Assembly (NCBI GenBank): GCA_951799445.1
Contig: OX637289.1
Location: forward strand, 48,460,264-48,524,263
Reading direction: 5' to 3'
Length of the DNA stretch: 64,000 nt
Origin: Pseudisothecium myosuroides
Taxonomy: Eukaryota; Streptophyta; Bryopsida; Hypnales; Lembophyllaceae
The notes under the pieces are model-generated. The model ran no database searches. It was not told where the DNA came from and saw only the letters and a list, made by a program, of their open reading frames with translations. Below, piece after piece: positions 1-20,632 of this stretch. Position numbers and translations under genes: made by a program. Within the stretch, counting starts at the first letter, position 1. Each line of letters starts with the position of its first letter.

Positions 1-434
1 TTTTGATCCACTCTCCTGGACCAATTCGCATACACTGCAGCACCCGCGTCCACCCAGGTGGGGGGACTTTTTTCAACGACCCATTTACCGTACCAGCAAT
101 TCCGATAAAGCAATTCCAGACTCGTTTCGGAGTTATCGGGTCGCCAGTACTGAAGCAAGAACTTCCCGTTATTCACATCTCCTTCCACTCTGCATACAGT
201 AGACAATGCTCTTCCCTGCCAAACAGCACATGATTCCAGGACTTCCGGTCTGACAAGTACCCAACAGCCTGGTCGTATGTCTAGCCATGGATTAAAGCTT
301 TCCCTTGGCGCTTCATTTGCAGGGCCGCAGTAAGGCTCCGGCTCCTCTTCTTCCTCCGGAATCACGTCCATGGGATTCACCGTCGATCCTGGGCGAGGGA
401 CTCCATTACGCGCCACCCTCCAATCGTGTTGTGG
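1..434 (-). CDS. in-frame continuation of the DUF7869 gene beyond a TAG, partial
   Basis: Directly after the TAG at 437-435 the same frame stays open for 144 codons to the window edge. It encodes an acidic linker (PEEEEEPEPYCGP) and then a segment resembling a small beta-barrel module (WLDIRPGCWVLVRP, FLLQYWRP, WYGKWVV). DUF7869-type proteins, as I recall them, often end in such a barrel. So this is probably the true C-terminus, cut off by a nonsense mutation or reached by readthrough. No intron that removes the TAG and keeps the frame was found nearby. Confidence 0.55.
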
Positions 435-3308
435 CTAGAAGCCTTCCACCAACTCCGGAGGACACTCGGGTAATGGTTCCTTCAGCTCATCGAGAACACA
501 CTTCCAGTAATCCACGTATGGACCGAACGCAGTTGCAAATCCTTCGCATCTAGAAATACCGTATTGCCAGTACTGAATGTATTTCTCGAGTCCTACCAGC
601 ATGAAATCCTTGTTCAAGGTAGCTTTCCGCGCCGCTTCCCTTGCCTTCTCTTGATTTCCATGCGGTATCGGAACCTCGCTGCCCCACATGGGCTTAAACG
701 GAATAGGCTTAGGACAGCCGTGAGGGAGCATGGGCCGACCATTGCTGTCTGTCTTCCAAATGCGTTCAGAAGGTTTCTTCGACGGCAACCAGTTCGAATC
801 AACTGCTGACCTTTTGAAGTTCATGACGGGGACCCCGTCAGTGTCCACGTAGAACTTGAACAGGTGCATCTCCCCCAATCCAATTAATTTTTCCCCGCGA
901 TCGCATTGGTAACCCTCCACGAACGACTTGAAATCCCCCACCTCCTGTATGAACTCCGGCATAAATGACAGTTCTTGGGACTGCATGAAGGCTTTCATGA
1001 GGTCAGCAACGACAAAAGTGTTCTTGGTCTTCAGGGCCTTGGAAAGGTGGCTGAAATATGCATCGATGTCCTCGTGAGTGTGTCCGACTAGTAGAAACCC
1101 AACCTGAATTTCCTTGAAGACACCTCGTGCAGTGAGCAAGGATAAGAACGCCATCAGATATTTGTTCTTGTTATCCTTGGCAGAGTTGTCAAGCTGAAGA
1201 TATAAATTTTCAGGAAGAGGGGTACTTCCAACCCGAGCTCCAGGTTCGGTGAGGGTTAGGCTGTCCATACATCTAGACTTTCCTCTAAGCAGTGCCTCGA
1301 ACAATGAGTTAGCCGGCGGATATGGAAAGAGGTCGCCTGCCTCTCGAATAGGTGGACCCTCCAGCCGGCGCAACAACCTCGCCAAAGACGAAATGGTGAA
1401 GTTGGAGTCCGCCGGCCAGCAAGATGGAGCATAATGGGCGTAAGCACCGTCACCATGGCCATGAGCTACCATTCCAGTAACGCTCATCGGAAGCTGCCCC
1501 AGACCGGCCGTGGCCTTCGTTGTCACCCGGAGTCTGGGTAGAGCCGTCTTGGATGTATCCATCTTGTCGTGAATTATACATAAAATTCTTCGAGGATCTC
1601 GTTTGGATTCCTCACGCCAAGACGCATACAAACGACGGCAAGAAGCTTGGTGATTCAGATGATGAGTCCGCTGCTTCACGAACTCCACGTACTCGGGGCT
1701 TCCTTTCGGAGACTTCAGAATAAACTGCTGTAGGTCGTCGCACGTAGTACATTTTGCAAACGAACTTCCGACAGGCTTAATGGAGACGTTGTTGAAGTTC
1801 TCCCGCTTGAGTCTACTAATAGTCGACTGGCTCACGGGCGGCAGACCGTAGTCGGCATTCAACTGCACATCCAGAATCGGTACGCTTAAGCATCGATACG
1901 AGCGAAGGGGAAGGAATGCAAATGACAAGCAATGCACCAGAACAGTGATCGTGATATCTCACGATCATTGATCTCGTCGGGAGATCTCACGATCAATAAA
2001 GCAGTGACAGGAGATAAGGGGCACTACCTCGTTGGCGTCTGCTCGGACTCGTTTCCAATTTCTTCCGGGAGGAAGGAATTTTAGAGTGTCCGTTCTTCCG
2101 TTCCCGATGCCGCGCATTTGGTGGGGCATTTGATCCGCATTCTCGTCAATAATGGCTTTCATAGTCCCAGCGACCTGAACAGTCCGAGCCCACGGGAGCT
2201 TAACCCCTGTGTTTCCATGCGTCCCTGATACGACGCCGTCGTTGTACATCTCGATGTAACTGTGGTAAGTGGACTTCGGGATGCCGTGAATTATGTGCCA
2301 CGCCTTGCCACAAACATCAACTCCCTCTAGCGTGACGTATTTCCGCTTCCGCTCCCCGTACCTTTCGTGTAGTTGTCCTCCCACTCCAATCCCATATTCA
2401 CGGCGCTCGTCAAACGACTTCAAGTAGTACTTCTGCCTTACTAACAGCGTGAACTCCTGGTTATAATGCTGACAACACAAACGTCTGCAGCACTTCTCCG
2501 AGCTGACTTTCCGAATCTCCTCGTCTGCCGTTTTGCGGGAGTACTGCGATTCCTTCAGTTCCAGATTGGGTTTGCGAACTATAAACCGATATGGTGCTTT
2601 CATTCTACCTCCGAGGTAAGCGAGAGGGTCGTCCATATCGGGAATGGCGGCAAAATGATCCACTGTCTCCTTCAACGAACGACCGTTGGGAAACCAGCAC
2701 TCCGAAATTGGCCACCTGTCGTGAGACATTATGGCTTCGGTGTCACCCACAAAAACATCGAGGACTGTCACACCTAGGAAACCTTCACCAAGTGTCTCCT
2801 CTTGGAAATGATCCTCCGGACTCCAGCAAATGATACGACCTGAGGAAACGAGGAGTCCGTCGGCGTCCTTCCGATGCACATCAAGTCCAAACCAGGCTCC
2901 TTGACGAATATACGGACATGGATCCATCGGGGGATCCCCCGACGCTCTAACAACGTCGGCGGCTCTCCACAACACTACATTCTCTTGAACATCCTCTAAT
3001 GTGTTCATACCCCTCTGACAAGGAAAGCATTTCAAATCCTGGAATTCTAATTTGACAGAATGAGGTCGCACCAGAATGTAAATCCAAGGCTCAACAGGTA
3101 TGGGCACACCCAGCCACTGGCCCTGGGGACGAACCTCTTTAATGATTCCTGATCCAACTTCACCGAATCCAGGCACAAACAGCTTAACCCAATCACCATT
3201 CACAAATGCTTCACATCCACCGGTGGAATCCTGTGATTCACCCTCTACATGCGTTCCGTCCACATACGGAACTATCGCGTTAGCAGCAGACTCACAGAAT
3301 GAATCCAT
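435..3308 (-). CDS. DUF7869-type transposase-like protein, two exons
   Basis: Exon A is 3308-2028 (427 codons) and exon B 1862-435 (475 codons to a TAG). The 165-bp intron has a GT donor at 2027 and a GATGTGCAG acceptor at 1863, and the frame is kept in phase 0. Exon A has a Cys-rich stretch (CCRRLCCQH, then GVDVCGKAW) that I associate with these proteins. Exon B has FNNVSIK, CTTCDDL and DKMDTSKTALPRL (about residue 525), LQLDNSAKDNKNKYL (about 650) and GHTHEDIDAYF (about 687), the signature order I recall for DUF7869 proteins. The conserved Asp/His/Glu residues suggest an RNase H-like nuclease, but that is inference. The gene lies divergent to the large plus-strand gene. It may have an upstream non-coding exon: a possible acceptor (TGTACAG) sits near 3366. 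The reading frame stays open beyond the TAG. Confidence 0.72.
1949..1992. repeat. two 16-bp palindromes in the DUF7869 intron
   Basis: TCGTGATATCTCACGA at 1949-1964 and TCGGGAGATCTCACGA at 1977-1992, 28 bp apart, both inside the 165-bp intron. Each is an imperfect copy of the regional consensus TCGTGGGATCCCACGA and keeps the TCG..CGA ends and the central GAT core. Confidence 0.85.
2927..2942. repeat. perfect 16-bp palindrome inside exon A
   Basis: TCGGGGGATCCCCCGA is perfectly self-complementary. Read in the gene's frame it encodes Ser-Gly-Asp-Pro-Pro. It uses the same codon phase as the four coding copies in the plus-strand gene. Confidence 0.85.
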
Positions 3309-3469
3309 TGTCAGAGTGAGCTTTATCGAATCCCGTGGACGAGATTAAAACGATCCGTAAAACCTGTACATCATACATTCAAGGAGTTAGGCATGTCTAC
3401 AGAAGAGCGCTGCATTCATGGCATTGTAACCTCACGACATGAAGGACAGAAGCATCAACGTCTGTACAG

Positions 3470-4148
3470 TCGTGGGAACTCACGATCACACGGCAACGCA
3501 ACATGAACAAGTGAATCTAGTTACTGTCAACAAGAAGTTCGAAAGCCCAGACGCGATAGTGCGATCTCAAGAAGGCCGTCCCAGAACCACTGGGAAGAAG
3601 CCAAGGCATCCAGGAAAACGTCGCAGAAGTTTAGAAGACATTAACCAAAGAACGTTCAGTACATCGTGGGATCCCACGACACTGATGGCGCTTAATCACT
3701 TAAACCAGAGATCGCGGTATTCCAAGATCCTCCTAAGGGATCACATAGACCGCTACAGAAATATAAATGAAGTACTGGGTCAAACTGAATCACTCTGATG
3801 AGTCCCCGACATATTATCAATCAATCGTGGGATCCCACGAGTTCGGTATCCTGTAAAATCCGGAAGAGTGTTTGTGAACCCCCCCGAGTAGGAGAACCTG
3901 GTGCCAACCGGAAATGTGATCGTGAGATCCCACGATGCTTATACAAGATCGACGAGGAGTATGACGGTCATCGAAAAGTAAGGCACCTAGACGTACACCA
4001 GGAAGGCCACAGCCAAGGTTCAATCGATCGTGGGATCCCACGACGAAATGATAGAACATCCCTCGACTACCAGACCGCGATATCTCTATACTCGAAGACT
4101 GAGAGGTCTCGCCCACGCTCAATAAGCGGAGATCGTGGGATCCCACGA
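3470..4148. repeat. cluster of six 16-bp palindromes upstream of the DUF7869 gene
   Basis: Copies start at 3470, 3664, 3825, 3920, 4028 and 4133. Those at 3664, 3825, 4028 and 4133 are perfect TCGTGGGATCCCACGA; the other two have one or two changes. The last four are spaced about 95-108 bp. The sequence between copies is not repeated. Short open frames exist here in several frames because the palindrome itself contains no stop in the frame read as SWDPT; I do not regard them as genes. The cluster lies where a promoter, 5' UTR or 5' intron of the minus-strand gene would be. Confidence 0.88.
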
Positions 4149-5485
4149 TGCTTACGTATGTTGGATATATACACGTATTCTACTGTCGTAGACTAACGTA
4201 TCTACAGATGATCGTGAAATTAGGTTTCCTGTCACTGGTTTCATGACATTCGACACTCTATAACTATTCTCAGTTACTGTACAAAAATTCTCTACTTTTA
4301 AAGTGGATTTTGTTGTAATTCAGACTCCTGAACCTCCATGGGTACAATAAGAAACGTTCTTAGAAGTAGTTGAATTTGATGGCTGGGTTTTCCTCATGTA
4401 AGTTCGCCTAATTCCTAGCGCAACCTAATTTCACTACTTTGTGAAGACGTTCTGACCGGTTGTCATCCACATACAAGGTTCTCATATCAACTTGCCCTCA
4501 GGGCAGTGCCGTCCCGCGATTCAAAAGGAACCTTGGTGTCACCACAGCATGGTGATCCCTTAAGCACGTGAGTTTTTCGCAAAATGAGTACAATGCGCGA
4601 AGAAAATTATCGCAGACTCCGTTTCACTTTCAATCTACGACATCCTCAGTTTGTGACAGAGTGCAGTGGCGTCAATTCGACTACAAAATCCTCGACATTG
4701 GGAATCGCATAACACTTGCAAGGGATGCATTCTTACCTTGCAGCAACTGGCTCGGTCAGAACTTCGTACGCCTCCACGCCCACTCTGTCGCCAATGCCGG
4801 CAGACACCCACTCGCCACTCCGCAGCCTGCTCCGCCTGTTTACGTGTGCAGACAAAAAGAGCAAGCTCCAGGTTCTTTTCGGGTTATGAACCAGGTGGCT
4901 GGTTCGAATTCTTCAGCTCTGAATTCCCGCCGCGAATTTTGAAATCACCAAGCGATCCTTGATTTTGAATGTTGGATGCGTTCTTGAATGTCGTGCCACA
5001 ATCAACAACGGCCTGGGGGTACGTGCGGTCCTTCACTTCGGAAGTTGATTGCATTCTCGAATTCCGCGCATCTCTGACTACAAGGAGGGAGGGCGTGAGG
5101 CTCTTGACTTTCTGACTGGAACTTCGCAAATCCAGGCTTCACTGAAATTCCGATTCTTCACTGACATTTTGAAATTCGCCGCATTCAAGGATGGTATCGT
5201 TGCACCGTTTTCTAGGAGTCAATGATGCTTTGACCAAAGCGGATCAAACTCTGAAGACTTTCACTTGACAGAATGTCACACGCTTCCCCGATCAATACTC
5301 GGAATTCTTCCCCTACACGACCTGATTATACGTATCCTACAGAAACGAACTGTACCAAATCTCGTGAACCCAAAAGCTTGAGCACCTGAAACATGTGGAA
5401 CACCTCACTTACAAAAAGAATCAACAAAAAGTTTGAACTCCCGAATGTTCATATTTGTTATTTTCTATTCCAATGAATGCAATCT
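4149..5485. other. intergenic, no recognised gene
   Basis: Mixed-composition sequence. Open frames of 80-130 codons occur but show no domain, repeat or splice support. A lone half of the regional palindrome (ATCGTGAAAT) is seen near 4210. The stretch 4560-5260 is GC-richer and could hold leader exons of the divergent genes, but nothing proves it. Confidence 0.4.
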
Positions 5486-5711
5486 TAGGGTCTAGGGTCC
5501 ACAGTCATAGGGTCTACAGTCCATGGTCATAGGGTTTAGGGTACATGTTGTAGTGTATTGTTCACGGTTTCAAGGTCATGGTTCTTGGGTTCAGGGTTCA
5601 GGGTTTCAGGGTTTAATAGGGTTTAGGGTATACAATGGCAGCGCTTTACATTAACGTTTTCAGGGTCTGCAGTTCATGGTTTACGGCTTTTAGGGTTTAG
5701 GGTATTATGAA
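5486..5711 (+). repeat. degenerate telomere-like repeat
   Basis: Many imperfect units of the plant telomere motif TTTAGGG and variants (GGGTCTAGGG, GGGTTTAGGG, GGGTTCAGGG, CATAGGGTCTA) are packed into about 225 bp. The array is heavily mutated, as interstitial telomere-like arrays usually are. Confidence 0.6.
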
Positions 5712-5961
5712 AAATGAAAATGACGCTGATTATTTGTTTCCAATTTTTTCCTCAATTAAGTTTACGTCATCTCAGACTGGGAACATATAAACTTAAAATT
5801 CAATCTAACTCAATATTGCTAATTAAAAATGTCAGTTAACAGATTGATTTCATATATAATTCTTGTTATGTAGTACAACATCCTATGGTTTAATATGGGA
5901 CTTTACGGATTAAACAATGATTGACACAATTTTTATTTCATCTACGAATTTTTAAATAAAG

Positions 5962-6122
5962 CACCAGGGGCTTTTTTGCGTTTCCCTCTCTCATTTTTTC
6001 CTGCGTAAACGGCAATCCATGACTTCTCGTTGTGTCACAATCCGTTGACACAATGAAAAGTCATAAGATTGTTGTTTACATAGGGGAAAGTGAGAGAGGG
6101 AAACGCAAAAAAGCCCCTTGTG
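5962..6122. mobile_element. 161-bp MITE, Harbinger-like candidate
   Basis: The two ends are inverted repeats of about 35 bp with very few mismatches, CAC(C/A)AGGGGCTTTTTTGCG continuing as TTTCCCTCTCTCA. They are flanked by a 3-bp direct repeat AAG (5959-5961 and 6123-6125). The size, the lack of coding capacity and the 3-bp target duplication fit a non-autonomous PIF/Harbinger element, although AAG is not the usual TWA target. Confidence 0.75.
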
Positions 6123-6489
6123 AAGGACTTTGGATGTGCAATCATGATGGAACAAAGAACAAACTAAACCATTTATTTATTTTGTATTTTAAATCTCAGT
6201 CTGAATGATTTAATGAGTTAAATGCTTTCAAATTTGTTAATGCACTTTGACGGGTGATGAATGCTTAAACCTGGAATCATGTCATTCATGAGAATATTGT
6301 AGGTCATGCAATCTTCCTCTGGATTTTTGAAATGATCGAACGTGGTATACATCTACATCATTATTTGACAACGATGTACGTAATATTGTTATTTGTTATT
6401 GTTATTTGAACAATCTCCACCGATGTGAAACAAAAAATCGGGAATGAAATGCATGATGGCTTGAAACGGCTTAAATCATATTTAAAAAG
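6123..6489. other. AT-rich spacer
   Basis: AT-rich sequence between the MITE and the satellite. I see no gene or clear repeat in it. Confidence 0.4.
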
Positions 6490-7957
6490 TCATGAAATTT
6501 CATACATGCATGCATAAAATTTGATTTAGAAAAATGTAATTGCTCCAACCTTAAATTCCACCACTATTTTCTAGTCTTGCCCGTTGAAAAATTCTAATTC
6601 ACATGAAAATAAAAAAATTGGGAATGAAACGGGCCCTGCCATTGAACTATGGCTTCATTTTAAAAATGTCATGGAATTTCACACGTGCATGCATAAAATT
6701 CTACTATGAAAGTTGGAATTGCTCTCAGGATTTAGATTCCACCACTATATTCACTTCTTGCCCCTTGCAAAATTCTAATTCACGTGAAGAAAAAAAAATT
6801 GGGAATGAAACAGTTAGGCCCTGCCATGGAATGGCTTCATTTTAAAAACGTCATGGATGGTTCATACATGCATGCATAAAATTCTATCGTGGAAGTTGGA
6901 ATTGCTCTCAGGATTTAGATTCCACCACTATTTTTACTTCTTGCCCGTTGAAAAATCCATCTTAACGTGAATTAAAATAAATGGGGAATAAAAATATTGG
7001 GCCCTGCCATGAAATGGCTTCATTTTAAAAATGTCATGGATGGTTCATACATGCATGCATAAAATTCTATCGTGGAAGTTGGAATTGCTCTTAGGATTTA
7101 GATTCCACCACTATAATTATTCACTTCTTGCCCATTGCAAAATTCTAATTCACGTGAAGTAAAAAAAATTGGGAATGAAACGGGCCCTCCCATGGAATGG
7201 CTTCATTTTAAAAATGTCATGGATGGTTCATACATGCATGCATAAAATTCTATCGTGGAAGTTGGAATTGCTCTCAGGATTTAGATTCCACCACTATTTT
7301 TACTTCTTGCCCGTTGAAAAATCCATCTTAACGTGAATTAAAATAAATGGGGAATAAAAATATTGGGCCCTGCCATGAAATGGCTTCATTTTGAAAATGT
7401 CATGGATGGTTCATACATGCATGCATAAAATTCTATTGTGGAAGTTGGAATTGCTCTTAGGATTTAGATTCCACCACTATAATTATTCACTTCTTGCCCA
7501 TTGCAAAATTCTAATTCACGTGAAGTAAAAAAAATTGGGAATGAAACGGGCCCTCCCATGGAATGGCTTCATTTTAAAAATGTCATGGATGGTTCATACA
7601 TGCATGCATAAAATTCTATCGTGGAAGTTGGAATTGCTCTCAGGATTTAGATTCCACCACTATTTTTACTTCTTGCCCGTTGAAAAATCCATCTTAACGT
7701 GAATTAAAATAAATGGGGAATAAAAATATTGGGCCCTGCCATGAAATGGCTTCATTTTGAAAATGTCATGGATGGTTCATACATGCATGCATAAAATTCT
7801 ATTGTGGAAGTTGGAATTGCTCTTAGGATTTAGATTCCACCACTATAATTATTCACTTCTTGCCCATTGCAAAATTCTAATTCACGTGAAGTAAAAAAAA
7901 TTGGGAATGAAACGGGCCCTCCCATGGAATGGTTTCGTTTTAAAAATGTCTGGCAAT
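6490..7957 (+). repeat. 183-bp satellite array with 366-bp higher-order dimer
   Basis: The landmark GCATGCATAAAATT recurs at 6508, 6687, 6870, 7053, 7236, 7419, 7602 and 7785, a spacing of 179 and then 183 bp each. Two monomer types alternate from the middle of the array. One carries CACGTGAAGTAAAAAAAATT and GGGCCCTCCCATGG; the other carries ACGTGAATTAAAATAAAT and GGGCCCTGCCATGAAATGG. This makes a 366-bp higher-order unit whose copies are nearly identical. The first monomers are more diverged, so the dimer was amplified later than the monomer. Confidence 0.9.
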
Positions 7958-9165
7958 TTCATGCATAAGACAGTGCATGTCGATATGGAAAAAAAGGTAC
8001 AAGTTCAAAATACTCCGCTCATGAAGTGAAGAGGCATGAGTGGGAGAAGTCCAATCATGCTACATTTTTACGAACTTACCACGTAACCTAAAAAGGTCCT
8101 CCTCCGCCTGCGGTTCATTCAAAGAACTCTCATTCCATAAATCATACATAAAACAGTACATGTCGGTATCAAAAAAAGAATGTATAAATTCTTAATCTTC
8201 CGCTCATGAAGTCATGAGCAAGAAAAGTCCATGGATTGGTACGTTTTCCAAAATTGCGATACATATTACATGTCGATTTAAAAACAAAAAATTGAAGTTG
8301 TAACTTAATATTAATTTTTTTTTCATAAATTGAAGATCATTTCTGAACGTCCTTTGTTTGACATTTTTTTTTAATTTCCATTTTTTGCAAGTAATTCCAA
8401 GATCATGGGCGGCTGGGCTTGGTCACGTACTTTGGAGAACTGTCTCCAGATATGCTCCAAAACACAAGTAAATTAAATAGATTAACACCTAGTATGCCCC
8501 TAAAACCGCGAGCAATCACGCTCTTGTCCACATCTATTCAATGATCATTGGAAGACAATTTATATAGAAGACAATAAGATAATTTAGATATTATTTCTTC
8601 ATTACACATTTGCCAATCATGTTGATTGTGTACATGAAAATGATTGCAAAGGAGATGAATGAGAAAGAATTATATAGGAAAATCATCAACAATGTTCTCT
8701 GTACTTATGTAATCGTTACAGTCATTTCTATTTAATTAAATAATTTGGACTAATCATTTTCTAGAGAAATGACAGAAGTGCAAACTAAAAATCAAAGTTC
8801 ATTATGTTAAAGGCATTTTTAGCGGCTTGTAAAAAAATAATAATCATCGAAACCAAAGGTTAAACCTAGAAATCAATGTAGCAATCTATGAAATTAAACC
8901 GCTCATGATTCGTAACTAATGTTTGCATGGGCAGAGTATTTAAAATAGTAAAACTACATTTTTTTTTGTTAAAATTAACTCGTACAACATCATGCATGAT
9001 TTATGGAATGAAGGGTCTTTGAACCGCAAGACTGAGGTTTTTTTTTTAGATTACGTGGTAAGTTTGGAAAAACGTAGCATGGACTTTTTCCGCTCAATCA
9101 TGACTCTTCACTTCATGAGCGGAGTATTTACAACTTGTACATTTTTTTCCCATACCGACATTTAA
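7958..9165. mobile_element. 1.2-kb foldback (inverted-repeat) element
   Basis: The left arm, about 7958-8148, contains TACTCCGCTCATGAAGTGAA, ACTTACCACGTAA and CATTCCATAAATCAT. It reappears in reverse complement at about 8990-9165 (TTTATGGAATGAA, TTACGTGGTAAGT, TTCACTTCATGAGCGGAGTA). The arms are imperfect. The loop (8150-8990) is AT-rich, holds a second partial direct copy of the left arm start near 8150-8250, and has no coding sequence. The left arm starts where the satellite ends, so the satellite may have arisen next to or inside the element. Confidence 0.7.
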
Positions 9166-9441
9166 AATAGTATAACTAGGTTGCCTTATTTCAACAAAGT
9201 TACTTTACAAGCCATCAAAGTAAATAAACGTTTCTACAATTATTTTTATTTGTAGACATGGAGTTTTGAGAGTTCCAATAGCAACAATACTTAAATAACA
9301 AATAGTGCATTCTTATAGAGAAACAAAAAAAATGTATGTGGTAATTATCGAATGTCACGAAATTAGTGAGGTGCAAGTGTGCGACCTAATTTCAGCATTT
9401 TGTGTAATGAGTGATTATTTAGCTTAAGACTTCTATTCAAG

Positions 9442-9474
9442 CCCTCCTCATGATGTCAGTAATTATGAGGAGGG
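9442..9474. promoter_or_regulatory. 10-bp perfect hairpin in the putative promoter
   Basis: CCCTCCTCAT (9442-9451) pairs perfectly with ATGAGGAGGG (9465-9474) around a 13-nt loop. It lies where AT-rich DNA (9166-9440, otherwise featureless) changes to the GC-rich leader of the plus-strand gene. A promoter role is inferred from position only. Confidence 0.4.
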
Positions 9475-9479
9475 TGGGC

Positions 9480-9971
9480 AGTCATGACCTCCGCCGTCTT
9501 GCACCTGACAGCGCCACGTCAGCAGACTCCCCCGCCGATTTCCTCTCCTCCTGGTCTCCTTTCCTCCCCACGACGTCTGCTTGCCACCCTTTTCTCCCGC
9601 CGTCGTGTGCTTCTCCGTCTTCCTGATTTCATGCGCTTCTCCGCTTTCCTTCCTCGCGATTTCATTCTGGTTGTTGCAGTCCGTTAGTTTGGTTGTCTGA
9701 AGCTTGGCATTTGGAGTGAGTTGGGTTGTGTGGAGTTTCTTTGGTTGGCGGGGCGTTGAACTTCTGTTTGCGGAGTCGAGCGCGGCGAGGGACATTAGAG
9801 GAGTGTATAATTCAAATTTTGCTGGCGGAGTGTGTGTGCGCGGAGAACGAATTTTTGTGGCGGAGTGCGGTAGTGCGTGAAGCATTTCCTGGCGAAGGCG
9901 GTGCGCAAGCGTCCGGACCTGTGCGCGAGAAAAACAACACGGTGCTGGACTTCACCCACCTCATTGAACAG
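9480..9971 (+). other. probable leader exon of the large plus-strand gene
   Basis: GC-rich, pyrimidine-rich start, then an open frame ending in LDFTHLIEQ at a good donor (GAACAG followed by GTTAGT, intron 9972-10640). The frame runs on without a stop into exon 2 (10641-10765, acceptor CATGCCACAG) as SFEERKGIFVVAENKAGP. No ATG precedes it in frame, so it is either 5' UTR or would need a non-AUG or further upstream start. I place the start at the first in-frame ATG, 10,713. Confidence 0.5.
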
Positions 9972-10712
9972 GTTAGTTCATTGTAGTCCAACCTCAAAAC
10001 CTACATTTTGATTTTGTAGTTCTCTGGCGGTGAGGTTCATTATTTGAATTCTTTGTTGTAGAATTGTGATCGCATGGAGGTGTGCGTTTGCTCTGGAGTT
10101 TAGCTTCTAGGCTTGGAAAGAATTGATCCCATTCAAGCTTGTCAAATGAATCTAGTACATGGATACAATGGCTGTATGGCACTCGCCCTCCTTGCAGGTG
10201 TAGGCTCTCCTCACGCATTGTAGTTCACGGTTCATCACTGTAGACCCTAGAATGGTAACCTGGATGTTATTCACGAACTAGAGTTCAATGTGTATGGACT
10301 GCTGTGAGTGTTTGAATTGAAGCAAAGTGAAGTAAGGAATGGGAATGTTGCTCCCAAAGAGGAATGGAGCGAAGAGTTCATTGTATATTATTTAGTTAGA
10401 CAGTACTCGTTTGTGAATGATATTAGGAACATGGTTTGTGCAGGGATTTTATGACTATGATCAGACACGCTTGTTTTCTGTGCGATAGGCTACTTAGTCC
10501 GTCGCTTTAGAATGATTTAAGTTTACCTTCTCTTCAATTAAATTCACTTCGCTAGTCATGAAGAAACAAGTTAAGAGTTTGTGATTCTCAGTGAATGATT
10601 GAAGCTACAATTTCTTCTGCATTTGAATTTCATGCCACAGTCTTTTGAAGAGCGGAAGGGCATTTTTGTAGTAGCTGAAAACAAGGCCGGACCCGTGCAA
10701 GCGGAAGCTACG

Positions 10713-13700
10713 ATGGCAGCAGCTCCATCCCAGCGTACAGCAGACCTCCCAGTTTGGAAGGACCCGTAAGTTACTTTGAACTATATTCTCATTACTTTCC
10801 GTTTCTTGCTTGCAATGTCTACGTTATAAACAATACCAATAATTAGGGTATGGCTGTTTGCAATTGCATTGGTACGCACTCTGCTGAAAACGAGGGTAGT
10901 AGAGCCTCTGTCATAGTCGCTGTTATAAACATGGCCGAGAAATACGGTAGTACATATGCCGAGAAGAACACACGGTAATGAGTACGTGACTCTGTTACCA
11001 CGGATAGTGACCCTAAAACCGTGCATCGTGGGATCCCACGACAGGGCAGTCCCTGTGTAGATTCGAGCATCGTAGGATCCCTGACTTGAAACCCTAGCCG
11101 CCCACCACTGCGCGGCCACACGAGTTTTAGGGTTTGTGGCCCATCGTGGGATCCCCCGATGATAAGATGTGAAGACGCAATCTAAACCCAGACCACAGGT
11201 TAGGCACAGACCAGGCAATGGATTAGTAACCCATCGTGGGATCCCCCGATGGAGGATAGTAAGGACCGCGTCTGACCCAGACTTAACAATTAGAAGGCCA
11301 CCTACATAGAGCATTCAAGTACTAAACCGTCGTGGGAAATCACGACGAGAGAGTCTAGCGTGGGTAGAGAAATTGAGATGCAGGCAGGTTAACAAATAGC
11401 GTTGATTATGTGAACAATCAATCGTGGGATCCCACGACAGACAGTAGTTTCACAGATCATCACCGATCACCTTCTAAGATATTCCAATATCCATTCTATG
11501 TTATTTGGTGCCGTCGTCATATGCCGGGACGCCTTCAGTTAGTGAGTTGAGATGCAGTAACCACCTGCCCACTACTGTCCGTGAATGTAACCGATCGTGA
11601 TATCCCACGACAACGGTAATTTGTGAAACCAGATCATCAAAATGATCACGAAACCATTCCTTCGCTTTCATAACATCCGTCGTGGGATCCCACGACTAAG
11701 GATAAAAATTAAAGTTAGAACGAGAATAATATCGCACCACCATCTGCTCTATCGGACAATGTAGAAACTAACATCTCTTTCTACCATGCTGCAGTGAAAT
11801 GCAAGTCGACGAAGGTCCAGAAGAACTGACACCAAGGAAGCTTGGTACCTTCATCGACTGCTACATTACGTCTTTGGAGTACACAGGTCCACATCCACCA
11901 CAAGCCTTTTTCCGATGCGACGAGCAGATTACGCATTGGGGAATCGCCTGGAAAGCAGAGAGTGACGGCTCCGCCACTATTCTTCCCACGCTGGTGAATG
12001 GGACAATGGGGCACCCAACTGCCGGACTGAAGGTACTAGAAATGAAGGGGCTTGACGACGACACAGCGCTCCTAGTTGTAGAGGAGAAGGTTCCCCTTTC
12101 CGGGGAGATCATAACGTTTGGGCTGATCCTTGACTACGCGAAGTTCAGCCTCACTCTTTGCGAGTCTGTGACTGCAAGATCACATCTGATGTGCAAGGAC
12201 ACGTCTAAGCCTCGGTGGAAGCCTAAGGAGCTGAAGAACCAGTGGGACATAATCCTGGAAGACTTAAGAGATACAAACGCTCCCCCGCAAGCCGTGACAG
12301 CGGTTGCTCCCACGCCGTCCCCCAAAAAGAAGACCAGGAAGAGGAAGTCTGCAGTTGGAGCTCCCGGGGACGAAGTTGAAGCCGCAGCTGGGACATCCGG
12401 AAAGAAGAAAAAACCGGATACCCCGCTTCCGCTTCACAGGGCTGTGGCTCTAGGGGAGGCAGACGTGAAGAAGATGACACCGGAAGAGATGAATAAGATG
12501 AGGACCCTGTACGAGAACTCTTTTGGTGGCCTGTACAAATGGGGCAGGAAACCAGTCTGTGACAGCAAAGGAGAGCTCATCCGCGTGCACTACGACTATC
12601 TGCACCAGGCACCTGTAGCACTGCTCGTGTACAGGGGAATTCAGGCAGAGCGGCTTGATTCGCTGACGAGGAAGGCACGAATCACACCTGATTATGACTC
12701 GGAGAACAGAGTCATAACAGTGCTTCCCCTTAAAGCGGGACCTTACGGCCCGGCGAAGGTAGTGTCGTACTATGAGAAGCAAGCGCCGAAAAAGGAGATC
12801 TTTGAAAACTCCAAGACGCACTACTACATTATAGGGGGCCAACACACTGTCCAGGCATTCAAGGACCTGATTAGGCTTGGTGTGATTCCCGAGAAGGACA
12901 AGAAGCTCGCCTCCACCTTCAATATTTTACCTGTGTGGACGGACAAAGATCACCACGGAGACCTAGTGCACTTCTCGCGGGCGCTGAACCAAGATGTCGT
13001 CGGCGAACAGAAGGAGCAGAACTTCACGAAGCAGCTGCTGAACGCAAGAATCAAGTGGCGGAGTATGGGAAGTCCACAGCCAGCAATATTGGGCAGATCG
13101 CACTCAGTAGAGTACAATGTAAGAATGCTGCTAGAGTTGACATATTTTTTTTGGGGGGTCATCAGAGTGCGCTCTACCTGACCATCGTGGGATCTCCCGA
13201 TGGTCCTGCACTACATCTCAGACCTTCATTACGTTAGAACCTCCTCATCGTGGGATCCCACGACTAAGTCCTGGATTTGCGATAAGGGGTAGTTCTACGT
13301 TAGAGTGCAGCCATCGTGATATCCCACGACTTTAACATATGAAATACCAGATAGCGCTAGTTTAGTTTTTTGTGCTGGCGGTTCAGTGCGTGGTGTTTTC
13401 AAATTGTGCATGTAGAAGATAGTAGCTCATCGTGATATCTCACGACTGCCTGTTGCCTAAACGACTTCCTCGTGGTAACTGACCGATCATGGGATCGCAC
13501 GACTGTTTATTGGACTTCTTGTGTTCACGTGGTCTGTCTACGGATCGCGTACTGACTGTTACTCCTTTGTTGGGCAGGCGTTTCAGCCGTCGGTGGCAAC
13601 AATATTTGCGGGAGCAAAGGCGAAAGACATCGCCGAACTGAGAATCCCTCTACTCTTCCTGGAGAACGACGCTGATGTTGAGAGATGGATCAAGATAGAG

Positions 13701-16700
13701 GAGAGATTCATGGCAGGTCTCCTTCCCGACGCGGCGGGGCTGGTCGATGTATCGGGGAGTACGGATCGCAAACCGTTGGCGGCAAACGACTTCAAGCCCC
13801 TTTACGGACTTAGACCGGAGGACATCAATTTCCTTGCAGATCAAGTCGAAGCCCAGGTTATTAGCATGAAGACCTCCGTCGCAAAGTCGAAATCACAGAG
13901 AGGTGGAAAACGCATCATCTCTCTTGCAGACGCCGGCGCCAAAATTCGGTTGGTCAGGGCGATGAAGAACAAACTCTTGTCACACTACAAGGGTCATCTG
14001 CTGCCGGCGAGGAGGGTGGAGTACGAGCCTTACCCGGACTCTTTGTGGGTCAAGTTTGCGACGGAAAGGAACATTCAGCACGAGGATGTGGAGATGTGGG
14101 TCAACAAGGCAATGGAAACCCCTGCTGGAAAGAAGTGGTTGCAGGATCGGACGAAAAATCTCAACAGGACGTTCGACCCAGCTGACCTTCCGCAGTCGGT
14201 GATCCAAATGTGGGAGTCGTACTTCAAGCTGACGGCGGAGGAAGAATCGGTGCAGGCAAATGCACGTGGTTTTTCAGAGCACTATCTCTGTAAAACCATG
14301 GAGGAAAGCAGCTGGGACATCAGCGCCACCTTGGCGGCAGGGGACGTCATAGCGTGGAGGGGAAAGAAGAAGCAGCACCTCTACATCTGGTTCATGTTCG
14401 AGTCAACGTCCTGCGGGTGTCGCGCCAAAATTCTTGAAGAGCGGAAGTTGAAGAGACTCTTTGACGCTCTGGAGTACTATGATCCGCAGGACCAAACAAT
14501 CGTAGCCCGCTCTGCCGCCGTTCTCCTCACAGATGCCGAAGGGTTCCACATGATTGTGGCTCACATAGAGAAACGAAGGATGGAAGTGAAAGCTAGGTTG
14601 TGGGACTGGCACGTTGTGAACTACATGGCAGGGCCCGAAGACTTCTTCCCTCAAGCTCCGGCCGGAGACGGGTACAATGTCTTTGTTGTCTTCATTTTTG
14701 GGCACAGCGAAGAGCACGAGCGGCGGACTTGCTTCAAAAGCTTCTTCCCGGGATTGGACCGCCTGACTCAGGTGTACAAGGCGGAAGATATGCCGGACAA
14801 CTACCCTTACTGGCGTCGGCAGCAGATGCCGTATCTGAAGATCAGCAGTGCGTTGATTCTATTCGAAGGACTAGCTTGCAGCGACTATGTCTTTGTGAAT
14901 GTCAACGGGGGTCCGGAGTTCACATATCTGGGCTTGGTATGCACTACAACGATTGTCTTTTCTTTTGTTCTTTTGATAATCTCATTTCGATTTCGGGGAT
15001 TTGAATGTCACTAATTTCCGGTTGTTGTATTTCAGTATTCGGAAGGTGGTAAAGTGCTGGAAGTTGTCGATTCAGCGGAAGCGAAGACGTTAAGTCAGGT
15101 CTTCGCCAAGCAGATTTGGGACGACAAACATGCGCAGGCGGCACCCCTTCCTCTTCCGGAGGCCGGACACGAGGACGAGGAAGTTGAGAGTGATGATGAC
15201 GATGCTGTACTCGAAGACATCACCCAACACAGACCGGGTTCAGGAACAAGGTCGGTTGAGCACCCTAAGGTTAGTGTGCATTATTTGCTGAACCATCGTG
15301 ATATCTCCGGACGTTGGGCAGCGTATATCTCTCGCATGCTAATCTGGGAGGGCAAACTGAGCTCAATTGTGGTGGGATATTGCTTTTCTCGCAGGCGAAA
15401 TCTCCGACTCCCTCCCCCCGGCGAGAGCAGCTGATGGATGCGCCAAGTGGAGCAGAGGATGCAGACGATGTTCCCGAAGTTCATTCGGCGCAGGCGGAGC
15501 TGGCAGATCTGGCAGAGGAGCATGAGAGTACTCCAGAGCCGTCACCAGCTGAACGAATTGTAATTCCAATATCCAGCGGGTCGTCAGGCGAAGTGAATTC
15601 AGGTGTCCAATTAACGGACCCAAGGATATCCAAGAGGAAGCCGCTTAAGACGCCGGTCAAGGAACCCAACACCGCAATGGATACTGGGAGCACAAAGGCG
15701 GCCAAGCGAGCGCGGAAGACAGCACTCGAGAATTGGAAGGGGGGGTCCTCCAAGTGGACTCCAAGTAAGTCGTTGGTGCAGCGCAAACAGTCGCTAGCGA
15801 AGCCGACTGGGAGTCCCAATCCCGAAGCATCAGTCGTGGCAGAAGCGCTTCTGAATTGTGCCTTGGGACCGTTACCATTGAGGCCTGTGAAGTCGACTCA
15901 GCCGCAACAGGAGGATGCGCAGGCATCTCGTGCTTCAGGAGCTGACAGACAGCTTCCGGACCTCGACTTATTAACCCTGGAAGACACTCACCGACCAGCA
16001 TCGGGGGATCCCACGATGACGAACGAGTCACTGGTCAAGAGCGGGGAGGATGCTGCCGACCTCAGCGAGGGGAGGAATGAGTCGAAGGGTGATGATGACC
16101 ACCTCGGATCGGGGGATCCCACGACGGGCCATGCATTACCTGTGGAGACTGTGTTAGCTGTCTCTCGACGTGGTGCAGGGAGGGATGACCAAGGCCGAAC
16201 ACCAGGACCTGAAGGATCGGGGGATCCCACGATCGTTGAAGAGTCAGTGGTCTCAATTCATCATGGCGATCCGGCAGAGAGCGAGGGGGGTGAACATCAG
16301 GAAGGAGTGGTTGCATTGTCTTCGTCGGGGGATCCCACGACTGTGCGAGAGCGATTGCTCCCGCCGATGGGCATCACGGTTGCTGTACTGAACGACACCC
16401 TTGTTGACTTGATCCCCCTGAGTCCCAAACCTGTTCCTGGAAGGAAGAGTAAACCTGTCATAGGGCGGGCGAGGATTGTCGACATTGCTTCACTGGCCTC
16501 CAGTGTTCCACTGGAGGTTGCAGGAGAGGTGGTTCCTGATGACGGTGAGTGCCATTCTGACGAAGTGCTAGAGGCCATACCTTACGAGGCCGAAGAAATA
16601 ATGAAGTTCTGTCTTGTTGATCGTATGAGAGCATTTGGTCATTTACCGAGTCTAAACCACTATGGGAAGAAGCGTCTCGATAACAACAAGGATATTCATT

Positions 16701-17817
16701 TGGAATCCGTAAGGCGAGCGAACCGTTTCTTTTACAAGCCCGTCTTTAAATGGATATTTCAGGATGGTCCGCGTGCAGTGTATGATGGAGGGGATCCACC
16801 TGATGCAGACGAAGAGTGGGAGGCATTGGAAGGCGGCGTTAGAGGGAGGAGGGTGGTGGTGGCTTCGAGCGACGACGACCTTGAGCCGGGATCTTTCAGT
16901 GGTGACCAGGGGGAAAGAGGACCAGTGAGCGCCGACGAGAGAGGAAAGGGGCAAATGCTCGTCGAGAGGAGAGGGGAAGGATCAGTGAGCGGTGGCGAGA
17001 GGGAAAGAGGACGATTGGGCGACGAAAGGAGGGCGGAAGGGTCGCCAGCTTGTAGCGTCCGAGCTCCCGCAGGTAACATGCCTACATTATTGTCAATGTA
17101 CATACGAGATAACGAATCTTGAATTGGCCGGTCACTGACTCTGTGCTTCTCTTGTATTCTGCAGTTTTTCGAGTGCCTGCTGAACCGGTGGCGAAGTCGT
17201 CGAATCAGGTAGAAAAGCGGCGGTATTATGTGGTCTTCGACCTTAATGGAGTTCTTGTTCACAGGTCATTCAATGATTTGAACAGACGCGTCGTAACACT
17301 TCGACCGAATGTTGGTCATTTACTAGACTTTGTGCATAGACATGCAAACATTGCATTCTGGAGCAGTATGACACCGGCAAATGTGACGAAGGTATTGAAT
17401 CAAATGCTGCCGGGGACGGCTGTTAAGGCGAAGGACGTGCCTGTTCTCACGCAGGAAGATTGCACAAAGTCGTCCTACAGAGACCCCAATCACCCGGACA
17501 GGCCCTTCTTCCTCAAGGATCTAAATCATTTCGCCACTAAGCTGGGTTTGAGGTCAACCGAGAATGTTCTCCTCGTTGATGACGATCCACTTAAGAACCT
17601 CTTGAATGATTGTCATAGCGCCATTTTCCCCTACAAATTTGATGGGGACTGGAGGGACCAGTACCTTGTGGGGGTGCTCAGTCCTTGGCTCGGAGGTCTG
17701 TTTAAGTCACAGGAAGCTGTGCCGGCGTATGTCAAGAAGCATCCGCTCCACAATGGTCTGCCACCGGCGGTCCCGTTGACCAGACCGGGCTCTGACATTT
17801 TGAGGGCAGTAGTTTAG
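10713..17817 (+). CDS. 1,766-aa protein: ParB/DGQHR-like segment plus C-terminal FCP1-like HAD domain
   Basis: Exons are 10713-10765, 11795-13118, 13578-14936, 15036-15269, 15395-17072 and 17165-17817. Every junction is GT..AG and the phases join without a stop. After an N-terminal region comes a basic stretch (KKKTRKRK, about residue 195). Next is IIGGQHTVQAFKDL (about 364) followed by ALNQDVVGEQK, which recalls ParB/DGQHR-type domains, though without the usual Arg after QH. Exon 4 (453 aa) is not recognised. Exon 6 encodes a disordered linker with four SGDPT repeats (about 1192-1300). The last exon is an FCP1/SCP-like HAD domain: FDLNGVL (about 1574, second catalytic Asp replaced by Asn), WSSMT, FLKDL, VDDDP (about 1687). 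The introns carry the regional palindrome. The function is unknown; the HAD fold is the surest call. Confidence 0.78.
11026..11695. repeat. eight palindrome copies in intron 2
   Basis: Copies of TCGTGGGATCCCACGA start at 11026, 11070 (degenerate), 11144, 11234, 11330, 11422, 11595 and 11680. Those at 11026, 11422 and 11680 are perfect. All lie in the 1,029-bp intron 10766-11794, mostly 75-100 bp apart. The sequence between them is unrelated. The flanking exon 3 has none. Confidence 0.88.
13185..13502. repeat. five palindrome copies in intron 3
   Basis: Copies start at 13185, 13248 (perfect), 13314, 13430 and 13487, all inside the 459-bp intron 13119-13577. The variants keep the TCG/TCA and CGA ends and change the centre between GGATCC, GATATC and close relatives. 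Confidence 0.87.
15296..15311. repeat. degenerate palindrome copy in intron 5
   Basis: TCGTGATATCTCCGGA lies in the 125-bp intron 15270-15394. Introns 4 (99 bp) and 6 (92 bp) have no copy. Confidence 0.6.
16001..16340. repeat. four identical coding palindromes at exact 108-bp spacing
   Basis: TCGGGGGATCCCACGA starts at 16001, 16109, 16217 and 16325. All four copies are identical over 16 bases, share one reading phase and encode Ser-Gly-Asp-Pro-Thr. The 36-codon units between them are mostly different. Units 1 and 3 keep a trace of similarity (TMTNESLV against TIVEESVV), so an old 108-bp tandem duplication has diverged except at the palindrome. Confidence 0.93.
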
Positions 17818-17846
17818 TTTTGGTTTCTCTTCCTTGACGGACTTCA

Positions 17847-18004
17847 TCGTGATATCTCACGATCTCCTTTTGGCGTGCATATTATTGCTTGTAGCTTAAA
17901 ACTCTTGAACATACTGTAAATATTGTAAATGCATTTTCGAAATACTGGACATTCTTTGTTTGTAGGAGGCATTGATTCTGCCTCGTAGTAAATGTGAAAA
18001 TAAA
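17847..18004 (+). promoter_or_regulatory. 3' UTR palindrome and polyadenylation signal
   Basis: TCGTGATATCTCACGA (17847-17862) lies 29 bp after the stop codon of the large gene. An AATAAA is found at 17999-18004 in a T-rich setting, about 180 bp after the stop, which fits a plant poly(A) signal. Confidence 0.45.
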
Positions 18005-18355
18005 TTTTTTTCCTAAATGCCTTTGATTAAGATAATTATGAGTTTGAAGGGATCACCTCGACCTTGACTATTAATCCGCGTGCATGCACATCTAGAGATC
18101 TAATGGTATACCGTGGAAGTGGATTCTATCGGTAGATCGGACTGTTCTGGGCATTTATCCTTGTCTTTTAAATCTAATGTGAATGCATTTCCGGAGCATG
18201 ACCCTCACTTAGAATTGTTTTCTTACTCTTGGTTTGCAGCTTTAATCTAAATTTGGTTCTGAAATTGTTTATCATATTACTCGGAAGAGTGGAATTTTTT
18301 GAACACTTCACTAGATTTTAACACTGGGCGTCATCATCTTGCGCGGCAAGCTTCA

Positions 18356-18920
18356 TCAGGAGATCGCACGATACGACGTGACGTGTGAACTTTGAAATGT
18401 TGTTTCCGTCCTTGTATTGTCTTGTGTTTTTGTACTTGTGGATGACAGTGAAGTTGTAGTTGTGCTTCTACTGTTTGTTTGGGAGTTCTCCTGCAGTTCC
18501 GGTTTGCTGAAGTACGGATTTGAAATTGATAATTTTGTCCTCTGTCTTCGGCTTGATCGGAAGATCTCACGATCATTTTCCCTTGCATCGAATTATTAGT
18601 CTTAGGCGGATTATGTAATGTCCATTTTTGTTGCTTCAATCGAATGCAATTGAATTTCTGCTGCGTAACTTCCTTTGCTTGAGTATTTTCGGTCTTCTAG
18701 TATGTCACCCTAAACCTTTTTTTGTATTTGACGCGAATTCTAAATCTGCATCCCTTGTTAGTGCTGTATTCTGGGCTGCAGTGACACCGTAGAAGTATTG
18801 CTAATTTCCTTGCACTATGCAGCAAATAAGACATTCAGTCGCTGTTCTTCAAATAACTACCCATGCGTATTTTCAATTAGCGGTTCTGTTGTATTGCATA
18901 TTGGTCGGGGGATCTCACGA
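18356..18920. repeat. three palindrome copies upstream of the second HAD-like ORF
   Basis: TCAGGAGATCGCACGA (18356), TCGGAAGATCTCACGA (18557) and TCGGGGGATCTCACGA (18905), all imperfect. They lie in non-coding DNA between the two HAD-encoding ORFs, again in the position of an intron or leader. The rest of 18,005-18,980 shows no gene. Confidence 0.75.
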
Positions 18921-18987
18921 TCAATTGACGTCGTTTCTGTATGTACATGTCTGCGTACTGAGGCTTACTTGGTCTTTGCAGAAGGCG

Positions 18988-19464
18988 ATGCTCTTAGTAC
19001 TAACAGGGGATCTCTGCGTGAAGGGCGGTGTGGCGGATCTCCCACAGAATATCGAAATTCGGCCCGGCTTCCGTGGTCTTCTCCGACATTTCGTTCATGA
19101 AACTCACTGTGGTTTGTGGTCCGCAATGCAACCTTCAACACTGGCCGCTCTTCTTCGACGTATTCTACCGCCGGAAATTCTGTCAAGGTTTCTATTTTTT
19201 GCCGGGTCTGACAATCCACGGAAGAACCAGGTGTATCCCCATCGTCGTGCAATACTGAAGACTGTCTTGAACATTCCTCGGACGCGCAGGGTACTCTTGA
19301 ATAACAGTGTTGTAATGCTTGTCCTAGATCCTCTTGATTGGGAACGTCCGCACTTGCTTCGACCGGCGTTGCATGTGAGGGATGATGTAGGTCCTGTAGA
19401 GTTAGATCGTCCGCACATTATAGCACCGCCTTTTGATTGGTCTTGGGCCCCAAAAAACATGTAG
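18988..19464 (+). CDS. second FCP1-like HAD domain ORF, catalytic residues lost
   Basis: 158 aa from the ATG. MLLVLTGDLC takes the place of the HAD motif I (normally a DxDG box), so the nucleophile Asp is replaced by Thr. EIRPGFRGLLRHFV and GLWSAMQP match the spacing and pattern of LRPNVGHLLDFV and FWSSMTP in the first HAD domain. RRVLLNNSVVM replaces the acidic VLLVDDDP. It therefore looks like a tandem paralogue that kept the fold but not the catalysis. A good acceptor (TTGGTCTTTGCAG) ends just before AAGGCGATG, so an upstream exon is likely. It could be a decayed gene or a pseudo-phosphatase. Confidence 0.6.
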   Translation: MLLVLTGDLCVKGGVADLPQNIEIRPGFRGLLRHFVHETHCGLWSAMQPSTLAALLRRILPPEILSRFLFFAGSDNPRKNQVYPHRRAILKTVLNIPRTRRVLLNNSVVMLVLDPLDWERPHLLRPALHVRDDVGPVELDRPHIIAPPFDWSWAPKNM

Positions 19465-19861
19465 TTGGAAGTGGACTAGCTGGGTTATATATCACCTGTT
19501 TGTTGCATCCAAATGATTATATAAGTGGCGAATCCACCTTTTCTATCTGACTGTGATTACACCTTACCAAATGTCTGTAATTGCATTATGTTGCTTCATC
19601 CATTCTTTTGTGTTATGTGATACTTTGGGAAGTATCTTCTGAGCTCTCCCGATCTGTGATGTCGCATATTAATGCAACCCCGGATACAAATGTACCGCTT
19701 ACAGCAAATGTCGGAGTTGACATCATCTCAAATTCATTGATTTGTTCGAACACTCTATCCCGAAGGAGTATATTTCCTTGCACCGGGAAATCTCCAGACC
19801 ACTTAGCATCCCAAAGCGATTTAAATCTCCTTTGAACGGCATTACGGACTCATTGTACATA
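19465..19861. other. no gene seen
   Basis: Low-complexity intergenic DNA after the second HAD-like ORF. It holds the presumed 3' UTR of that ORF and otherwise nothing I recognise. Confidence 0.35.
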
Positions 19862-19884
19862 CCATCGGGAAGATCTCCCGATGG
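19862..19884. repeat. last palindrome of the region
   Basis: CCATCGGGA and TCCCGATGG are perfect inverted arms around AGATC. This 23-bp site is the final member of the palindrome family in the window. It sits directly at the edge of the retrotransposon fragment that follows. Confidence 0.7.
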
Positions 19885-20632
19885 ACAGGACCTTCACAAA
19901 GTCCAGAATTCCCCGTAAATTCCAGAAGTAGTTAAATATGGCATTTGACTGCCCGGAAGAGGTTCTTCTGCAAGTCAGAAGATGCCAGGAATTTTCATAG
20001 GACCTTTCAGGGAGTCGCATGAAAGATGTGAAGGTGCATTTTTGTACCTGGCACAATTGGCTAGTGGAGATCCAAATTGGCCGTCTCCTTGAATTGTTGA
20101 TGGTGCGGGAATCTTCTGCAGATGAAGAAATCTTGACGAATCGATTTCGCCATTGGACTCTTGGCACGGGATTTTTTTTGGAATACCATCCTTGGGCAGT
20201 AGATTCCTCCACGGGCCCGTCTTGCGTTAGTAGCTTTTGCATGCTAATAATCTGGATTTTGGGAATTCATCGATCTAATAGGGAATTCAAAATCTAACTC
20301 TAGGATCCGACCTAGTGACCTTGCTGTAGATCCTTCAGACTGACTTAGCCATGAATTGCCACATTCATGGTGAGATTTAGCCCTTTGGAGGCTATGTGAC
20401 TCAAATCCTCCAAATCCCATTATCTTGTTATTTCTATTCTATTTTTAGGCAAGATTTGGAGGAATTCTAGGTATAAACACAAATCTAGACCAAATACTAT
20501 AATGGGTATGACACAATCCTATTCTGGTTCTACACTCTTTTTATGGCTTTTTGTATACTTTTATCAACTTTAAATTGCAAATTGCAAAAAAAAAAAATCT
20601 ACGAGTCCCAAGTGACAAATTGGGAGCTCACA
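19885..20632 (-). mobile_element. truncated LTR (family 1, copy C), inverted
   Basis: In reverse complement it starts TGTGAGCTCCCAATTTGTCA at 20632 and runs alongside the two other LTR copies of this family (21862 on, 43847 on). Shared blocks include the GTATACAAAAAGCCAT block, GAGTCACATAGC and TTGACTTGCAGAAGA-like stretches. It stops at 19885, so only about the first 750 bp of the LTR are present. No internal retroelement domains adjoin it. Confidence 0.75.

Follow-up and report, generated by a model that had tools for sequence, protein, structure and literature searches.

A dispersed 16-bp palindrome as a putative self-recognition site of a 21.5-kb DNA transposon in the moss Pseudisothecium myosuroides

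The transposon and its two main genes

We analyzed a 64,000-nucleotide stretch of the genome of the moss Pseudisothecium myosuroides (assembly GCA_951799445.1, contig OX637289.1, positions 48,460,264 to 48,524,263), referred to below as the window. Its first 20 kb contain many dispersed copies of a 16-bp palindrome, TCGTGGGATCCCACGA, and the region that carries them is one copy of a 21,495-bp DNA transposon with terminal inverted repeats and 4-bp target-site duplications. The palindrome is probably a recognition site specific to this transposon family and bound by a dimer of an element-encoded protein. The features of the element in window coordinates are as follows, with the strand in brackets where one applies.

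1..19944: the transposon, part inside the window; a further 1,551 bases lie to the left of it (whole element, C3:48458713-48480207)
435..1937 (-): DUF7869 exon, with a predicted fold like that of DDE transposases
1949..1992: two palindromes in the DUF7869 gene intron (intron predicted by eye)
1965..3308 (-): open frame further upstream, regarded as the preceding DUF7869 exon (junction predicted by eye)
2927..2942: perfect palindrome TCGGGGGATCCCCCGA, inside the upstream exon of the DUF7869 gene
3470..4148: array of six palindromes upstream of the DUF7869 gene, 0.16-0.84 kb from its predicted start codon (3308, minus strand)
11026..11695: array of seven palindromes upstream of the ParB-like/NIF gene, 0.1-0.77 kb from its predicted start codon (11799)
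11799..13118 (+): ParB-like/NIF exon 1, with the GGQH ParB-like fold
13185..13502: array of five palindromes in intron 1 of the ParB-like/NIF gene
13578..14936 (+): ParB-like/NIF exon 2, no Pfam match
15036..15269 (+): ParB-like/NIF exon 3
15395..17072 (+): ParB-like/NIF exon 4, the most variable exon, containing the palindromes spaced by 108 bp
16001..16340: four palindromes TCGGGGGATCCCACGA at an exact 108-bp spacing, in frame in exon 4 (encoding SGDPT)
17165..17817 (+): ParB-like/NIF exon 5, with the NIF/FCP1 phosphatase domain (PF03031, E 1.8e-13)
17847..18920: group of palindromes at 17847 (30 bp past the ParB-like/NIF stop codon), 18356 and 18557 (4 mismatches each) and 18905
19863..19883: subterminal 21-bp variant CATCGGGAAGATCTCCCGATG of the palindrome, at a distance of about 60 bp from the right end
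19921..19944 (-): 24-bp terminal inverted repeat of the right end, ATGCCATATTTAACTACTTCTGGA; the left repeat lies outside the window
19945..19948: target-site duplication TTGA, also present directly before the left end

The unit was found by comparing the left neighbor of the window and five other places that had the same spacing. Five copies, the one in the window and those near 1.98, 16.94, 43.64 and 51.82 Mb of contig 1, have common sharp ends and are 93-99% identical; at the sixth place, 24.17 Mb, neither element end lay in the stretch examined. The window copy and copies A, B and D have identical terminal 24-mers at their two ends; the 51.82-Mb copy (E) has 2 mismatches at one end. The 4-bp duplications flanking the five copies, read by eye, are TTGA, AGGT, TTGT, AAGG and TCAT, and thus differ from copy to copy. 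With up to 2 mismatches the 388-Mb genome has 584 + 571 occurrences of the terminal repeat and 0 of its reversed control. Searches of the literature on ParB/parS and eukaryotic transposons, and on giant moss or bryophyte transposons, gave nothing recognized as this element among the matches listed. VANDAL elements are Mutator-like, with a MULE transposase domain and a duplication of about 9 bp, and CACTA elements have CACTA termini and a 3-bp duplication. Membership in either group was considered and rejected: the only Pfam domains in the element frames scanned were DUF7869 and NIF, the termini read ATGCC, and the duplication is 4 bp.

For the structure model of the DUF7869 protein, 48 of the best 50 rows were transposases or integrases. 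The predicted fold resembles the DDE/RNase H-like type, which makes this protein a transposase candidate. No Pfam match was found for the upstream open frame (1965..3308). The open frame of the window exon (435-1937) has 507 residues, and the commonest length among tabulated copies is 677. Homologs numbered 142 at E <=0.001; among the 120 of these that were listed, the sole organism named was the liverwort Riccia sorocarpa (2 rows). The viral contigs searched gave no DUF7869 relatives, and a full-text literature search returned no paper using the name DUF7869. The second main gene is a 1,747-residue frame in five exons, in which a ParB-like fold is joined to an FCP1/NIF phosphatase domain; a homolog search with exon 4 came back empty. 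Past this gene, the open frame 18817-19464 resembles by eye a degenerate second FCP1-type domain and has no Pfam match. Also within the element is a 183-bp tandem repeat of about 8 copies (6476-7950), at which the alignment to the other copies is gapped; no palindrome at <=3 mismatches occurs in it.

Form and conservation of the palindrome

With up to 3 mismatches, TCGTGGGATCCCACGA has 27 matches in the window, all within 1949-18920, compared with a mean of 0.07 and a maximum of 1 in 100 dinucleotide shuffles of the same DNA. Four further palindromes at this threshold lie left of the window in the same element. A preliminary description, made from the letters of the window alone, had put about 30 copies between 1.9 and 19.9 kb, nine or more of them perfectly self-complementary, with none in the other 44 kb. 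The recount bears this out: to the 27 matches are added the weaker sites at 18356 and 18557 and the variant at 19863-19883, nine are perfect (starts 2927, 3664, 3825, 4028, 4133, 11026, 11422, 11680 and 13248), and the other 44 kb have zero matches at <=3 mismatches. When as many as 5 mismatches were allowed and at least 12 symmetric bases required, those 44 kb gave two windows only, at 31139 and 44632.

Across the 27 sites the bases TCG, G, ATC, C and CGA are near-invariant, and variation is found at position 4 (T or G), position 6 (G or A), position 7 (G or T), position 11 (mostly C or T) and position 13 (A or C). Directly 5' of the site stands A or G in all 27 cases, and directly 3' of it T or C in 26 of 27. 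The sequence between sites had been called unrepeated, and this is largely so: pairwise identity of the flanks is mostly around the random median of 0.24-0.25, with a faint likeness in a few pairs (0.42-0.47 over 45 bases, where the 99.9% null is 0.47) and in two exon-4 units (0.43 over 92 bases, 99.9% null 0.40). Within one array, the sites are 69-100% identical and the spacers mostly at random identity. The exon-4 palindromes at the 108-bp spacing number five in copies D and E. The perfect dyad symmetry of nine sites would also be expected of a cruciform or hairpin, that is, of a structural feature of the DNA or RNA and not a protein site. We regard this as extremely improbable, since there is no loop spacer, the near-fixed bases show that sequence is kept as well as symmetry, and imperfect sites are stable across copies.

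In an alignment of the five copies, 24 of 512 motif positions were variable, compared with 256 of 2,241 in the 40-bp flanks (p 1.4e-6); without the window copy the counts were 23 of 512 and 247 of 2,241. In the first test (Fisher) sites were chosen in the window copy, and a rerun with sites taken from any copy agreed. By an earlier count, 8 of 51 CpG dinucleotides were variable in the motif, compared with 152 of 433 in the rest of the non-coding DNA. Sites perfect in all five copies are those at 3664, 4028, 4133, 11026, 11422 and 11680.

The exact palindrome had 0 matches in the viral contigs searched. Its 12-mer core is printed in three papers, whose subjects, as judged from their listing, are neural stem cells, the expression of CYP3A4 and a tissue scaffold. 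A possible read-through of a palindrome-bearing intron in proteins P0140 and P0121 was seen by eye only and was not counted.

Distribution in the genome

Genome-wide, 3,242 matches to the palindrome were found at <=2 mismatches, versus 47 for the reversed control. We placed 50 listed perfect palindromes, all of them from contig 1. Six element copies on that contig have 41 of these within 25 kb; one of the six (18.14 Mb) was counted without being read. The sequence around the remaining nine was read: seven are in miniature inverted-repeat transposable elements (MITEs), and two in fragments of the element promoter array. The even spread over the genome that the preliminary description had set against its own idea was not seen among the 50 placed palindromes.

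The seven MITEs are 202-247 bp long, with termini 2-3 mismatches from those of the element. Six of them are flanked by matching 4 bases (CTTT, CATT, ATAA, TGTT, AGTT and CTAT); in the seventh, L039, the ends are decayed and a clean duplication is missing. The palindrome of the MITEs starts 50 bp from one end. In the one MITE compared by BLAST, the match to the element covered the first 45 bases only. Because these seven had been found via the palindrome, five further MITEs were chosen by their paired termini alone. Four of the five contain the palindrome (with 1, 2, 1 and 3 mismatches), while a match at <=3 mismatches arose in 1 of 10,000 base shuffles. Among the unmismatched terminus pairs of contig 1 in the range listed, 5 of 12 contain a perfect palindrome. 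The earlier view that the palindromes of the window are not MITE copies holds, but elsewhere in the genome MITEs do contain the same palindrome. The similar termini and the 4-bp duplications (in 6 of the 7 read with flanks) recall known pairs of MITEs and autonomous elements; unlike those pairs, most MITEs here keep an internal palindrome in addition to the ends.

The 50 places also bear on whether a host factor reads the site, such as a plant dimer of the NAC or TCP type, used by the element for expression or by the host for silencing. The arrays upstream of both genes would suit such a factor, as would the variants CGTG..CACG and GTGGG..CCCAC, which we take to resemble NAC- or TCP-type sites. 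Yet 0 of 50 perfect palindromes fell outside the family, its MITEs and fragments, so that no use by host genes was seen, and an element would hardly conserve a site for its own silencing by the host. We consider a host factor quite unlikely, and return to an element-encoded protein.

The GGQH gene is on the expected side within 60 kb for 68 of the 86 scored DUF7869 copies, in keeping with the co-location that had been proposed for checking. Contig C11, possibly a low-recombination or sex chromosome, has 16 of 95 ParB-like and 11 of 86 DUF7869 matches, many with stops. A second DUF7869 family comprises 63 matches (for example C5:11655416, C8:323962 and C1:7511303) with 48-68% identity to P0054, which is itself 40% identical to the window protein. 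On contig 1, a perfect palindrome was found within 25 kb of 0 of 6 copies of this second family, versus 5 of 5 listed copies of the first. A ParB-like match, from 102 such places, lay within 25 kb of 0 of the 63 second-family matches, although a more diverged gene may be missed.

These distributions allow the simplest use of the palindrome to be weighed, in which the DUF7869 protein binds subterminal sites as a transposase and local duplication has left the internal arrays behind as by-products that regulate nothing. The sites would then resemble the TnpA motifs of CACTA elements, except for their spread inward. A site lies 50-60 bp from an end both in the MITEs and at the right end of the element, and the DUF7869 model is DDE-transposase-like, as this explanation would predict. 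The palindromes that are perfect in all five copies, however, are internal and lie in the two upstream arrays, where the spacers have diverged and the sites have not. The second DUF7869 family also lacks the perfect motif near all six contig-1 copies, although its transposase may read another site. Transposase-only binding thus appears rather unlikely compared with recognition that also serves the body of the element.

The remainder of the window has features of other kinds. A 303-bp unit is repeated three times with 94% matches at 36496-37409, inside a DYW-type pentatricopeptide repeat gene; a 973-residue open frame at 48762-51683 has no Pfam match at E <=0.1; and a 2,159-residue gag-pol frame at 54062-60541 appears by eye to be like that of a Ty3/gypsy retrotransposon.

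A probable family-specific recognition site

There is good support for the preliminary idea that the palindrome serves an undescribed element as a self-marking system. The region proved to be a copy of a transposon, all 50 places examined belong to the family or its MITEs, and the palindrome is conserved relative to its flanks. A dimeric binding site is suggested because of the dyad symmetry. That the palindrome is retained in MITEs points to a role in mobilization: terminal sites, which most of the MITEs read have kept, would help the complex of the DUF7869 transposase to locate the ends and bring them together. The arrays in promoters and introns point to a regulatory role as well; with sites in front of the two main genes, within introns and past stop codons, the element could recognize and regulate its own body. 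The most likely form of such regulation would be that promoters are kept active against host silencing, as VANC does on VANDAL. VANC is an anti-silencing protein of the element that binds its motif and removes methylation from the DNA.

VANC21 on VANDAL21 appears, by analogy, to be the closest precedent. According to PMC5735166, the VANC21 motif is short and densely repeated in non-coding DNA of VANDAL21, both in introns and in the intergenic and terminal parts. Like our element, the Arabidopsis VANDALs as described there and in PMC10398659 have many copies of one motif, rare in related families, in introns, intergenic and terminal parts, and the number of motifs changes via tandem duplication. 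The present element differs in its DUF7869 transposase candidate, its 4-bp duplication, a 16-bp palindrome that is partly exonic, and a ParB-like/NIF candidate binder. CACTA elements with subterminal motifs of the TnpA type are another likeness. The 20.5-kb soybean Tgmt* (PMC2613891) is likewise a large plant transposon with a repeated, family-diverged motif, which is presumed to attract a binder that the element encodes. In Tgmt* the repeats are described as subterminal, while those of the moss element are in promoters, introns and exons, and termini and duplication length differ.

The favored binder is the ParB-like/NIF protein, which combines a predicted ParB-type fold with a domain of a polymerase-II-tail phosphatase family. 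It is favored because its gene accompanies the palindrome in the sample placed, whereas no match to it lay within 25 kb of the second family, which lacks perfect palindromes near its contig-1 copies. The model of its GGQH domain (residues 250-402) is like ParB, Noc and KorB, and a ParB-type N-terminal fold is predicted on this basis. In the NIF domain the active-site motif reads DLNGV, with the second Asp replaced despite the clear PF03031 match, where the active site of FCP/SCP phosphatases is DxDx(T/V); no PDB sequence match was found for this domain.

A special case of such binding, whose odds overlap with those of the general one, would follow bacterial ParB/parS, Noc and KorB: the ParB-like domain would load on the palindromes, spread as a nucleotide-gated clamp and coat the element. 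The predicted fold and a target of similar length and symmetry are points of likeness, but the parS site sequence and the ParB nucleotide motif differ from those here, and the host is a plant. Foldseek alone gave no ParB among the best 50 for the domain, which also has no sequence match to the Pfam ParB model or to PDB chains. GGQHT stands in the place of the usual nucleotide motif, which is of the GERR type; no helix-turn-helix match was recognized by Pfam in the ParB-like/NIF open frames scanned; and eukaryotic members of the ParB/sulfiredoxin superfamily have other functions. Clamp-like spreading is thus distinctly unlikely. A broader proposal is that the ParB-type fold and the phosphatase domain together form a self-recognition system that loads at dozens of palindromes, coats or regulates the element and evades silencing, with related DUF7869 families each having a motif of their own; this is a speculation that we think unlikely.

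Several observations weigh against the palindrome being a recognition site of an element-encoded dimer. The five aligned copies are closely related and not independent, so that the conservation tests overstate independence; the placed palindromes are 50 of 3,242 near matches; and the contrast with the second family comprises six copies, one contig and perfect matches only. Three of the 63 second-family matches do have a ParB-like match within 60 kb, and in a single case (C6:29110731, also 10.4 kb from a DUF7869 copy of the first family) the orientation is the expected one. The MITEs may keep palindromes only as derivatives of element ends, and the fifth end-picked MITE has only a disrupted palindrome with 5 mismatches. 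Some palindromes are exonic (2927; 16001-16325), whereas the VANC21 motif is mainly non-coding. Pfam recognized no DNA-binding domain in the open frames scanned. Finally, a cross-species search of 140 homologous proteins for palindrome-encoded peptides was null, with 2 matches versus a shuffled mean of 1.89 and 1 for the reversed control.

The present analysis ties DUF7869 to an element of defined extent, for which ends, target duplications and MITEs are known, and this makes a transposase role for this domain likely. A conserved, countable DNA mark bound to one family would be a second case, beside VANDAL/VANC, of a transposon discriminating between itself and its host. If it is true that the ParB-like domain reads the palindrome, a ParB-type DNA-loading fold would be at work in a eukaryotic mobile element.

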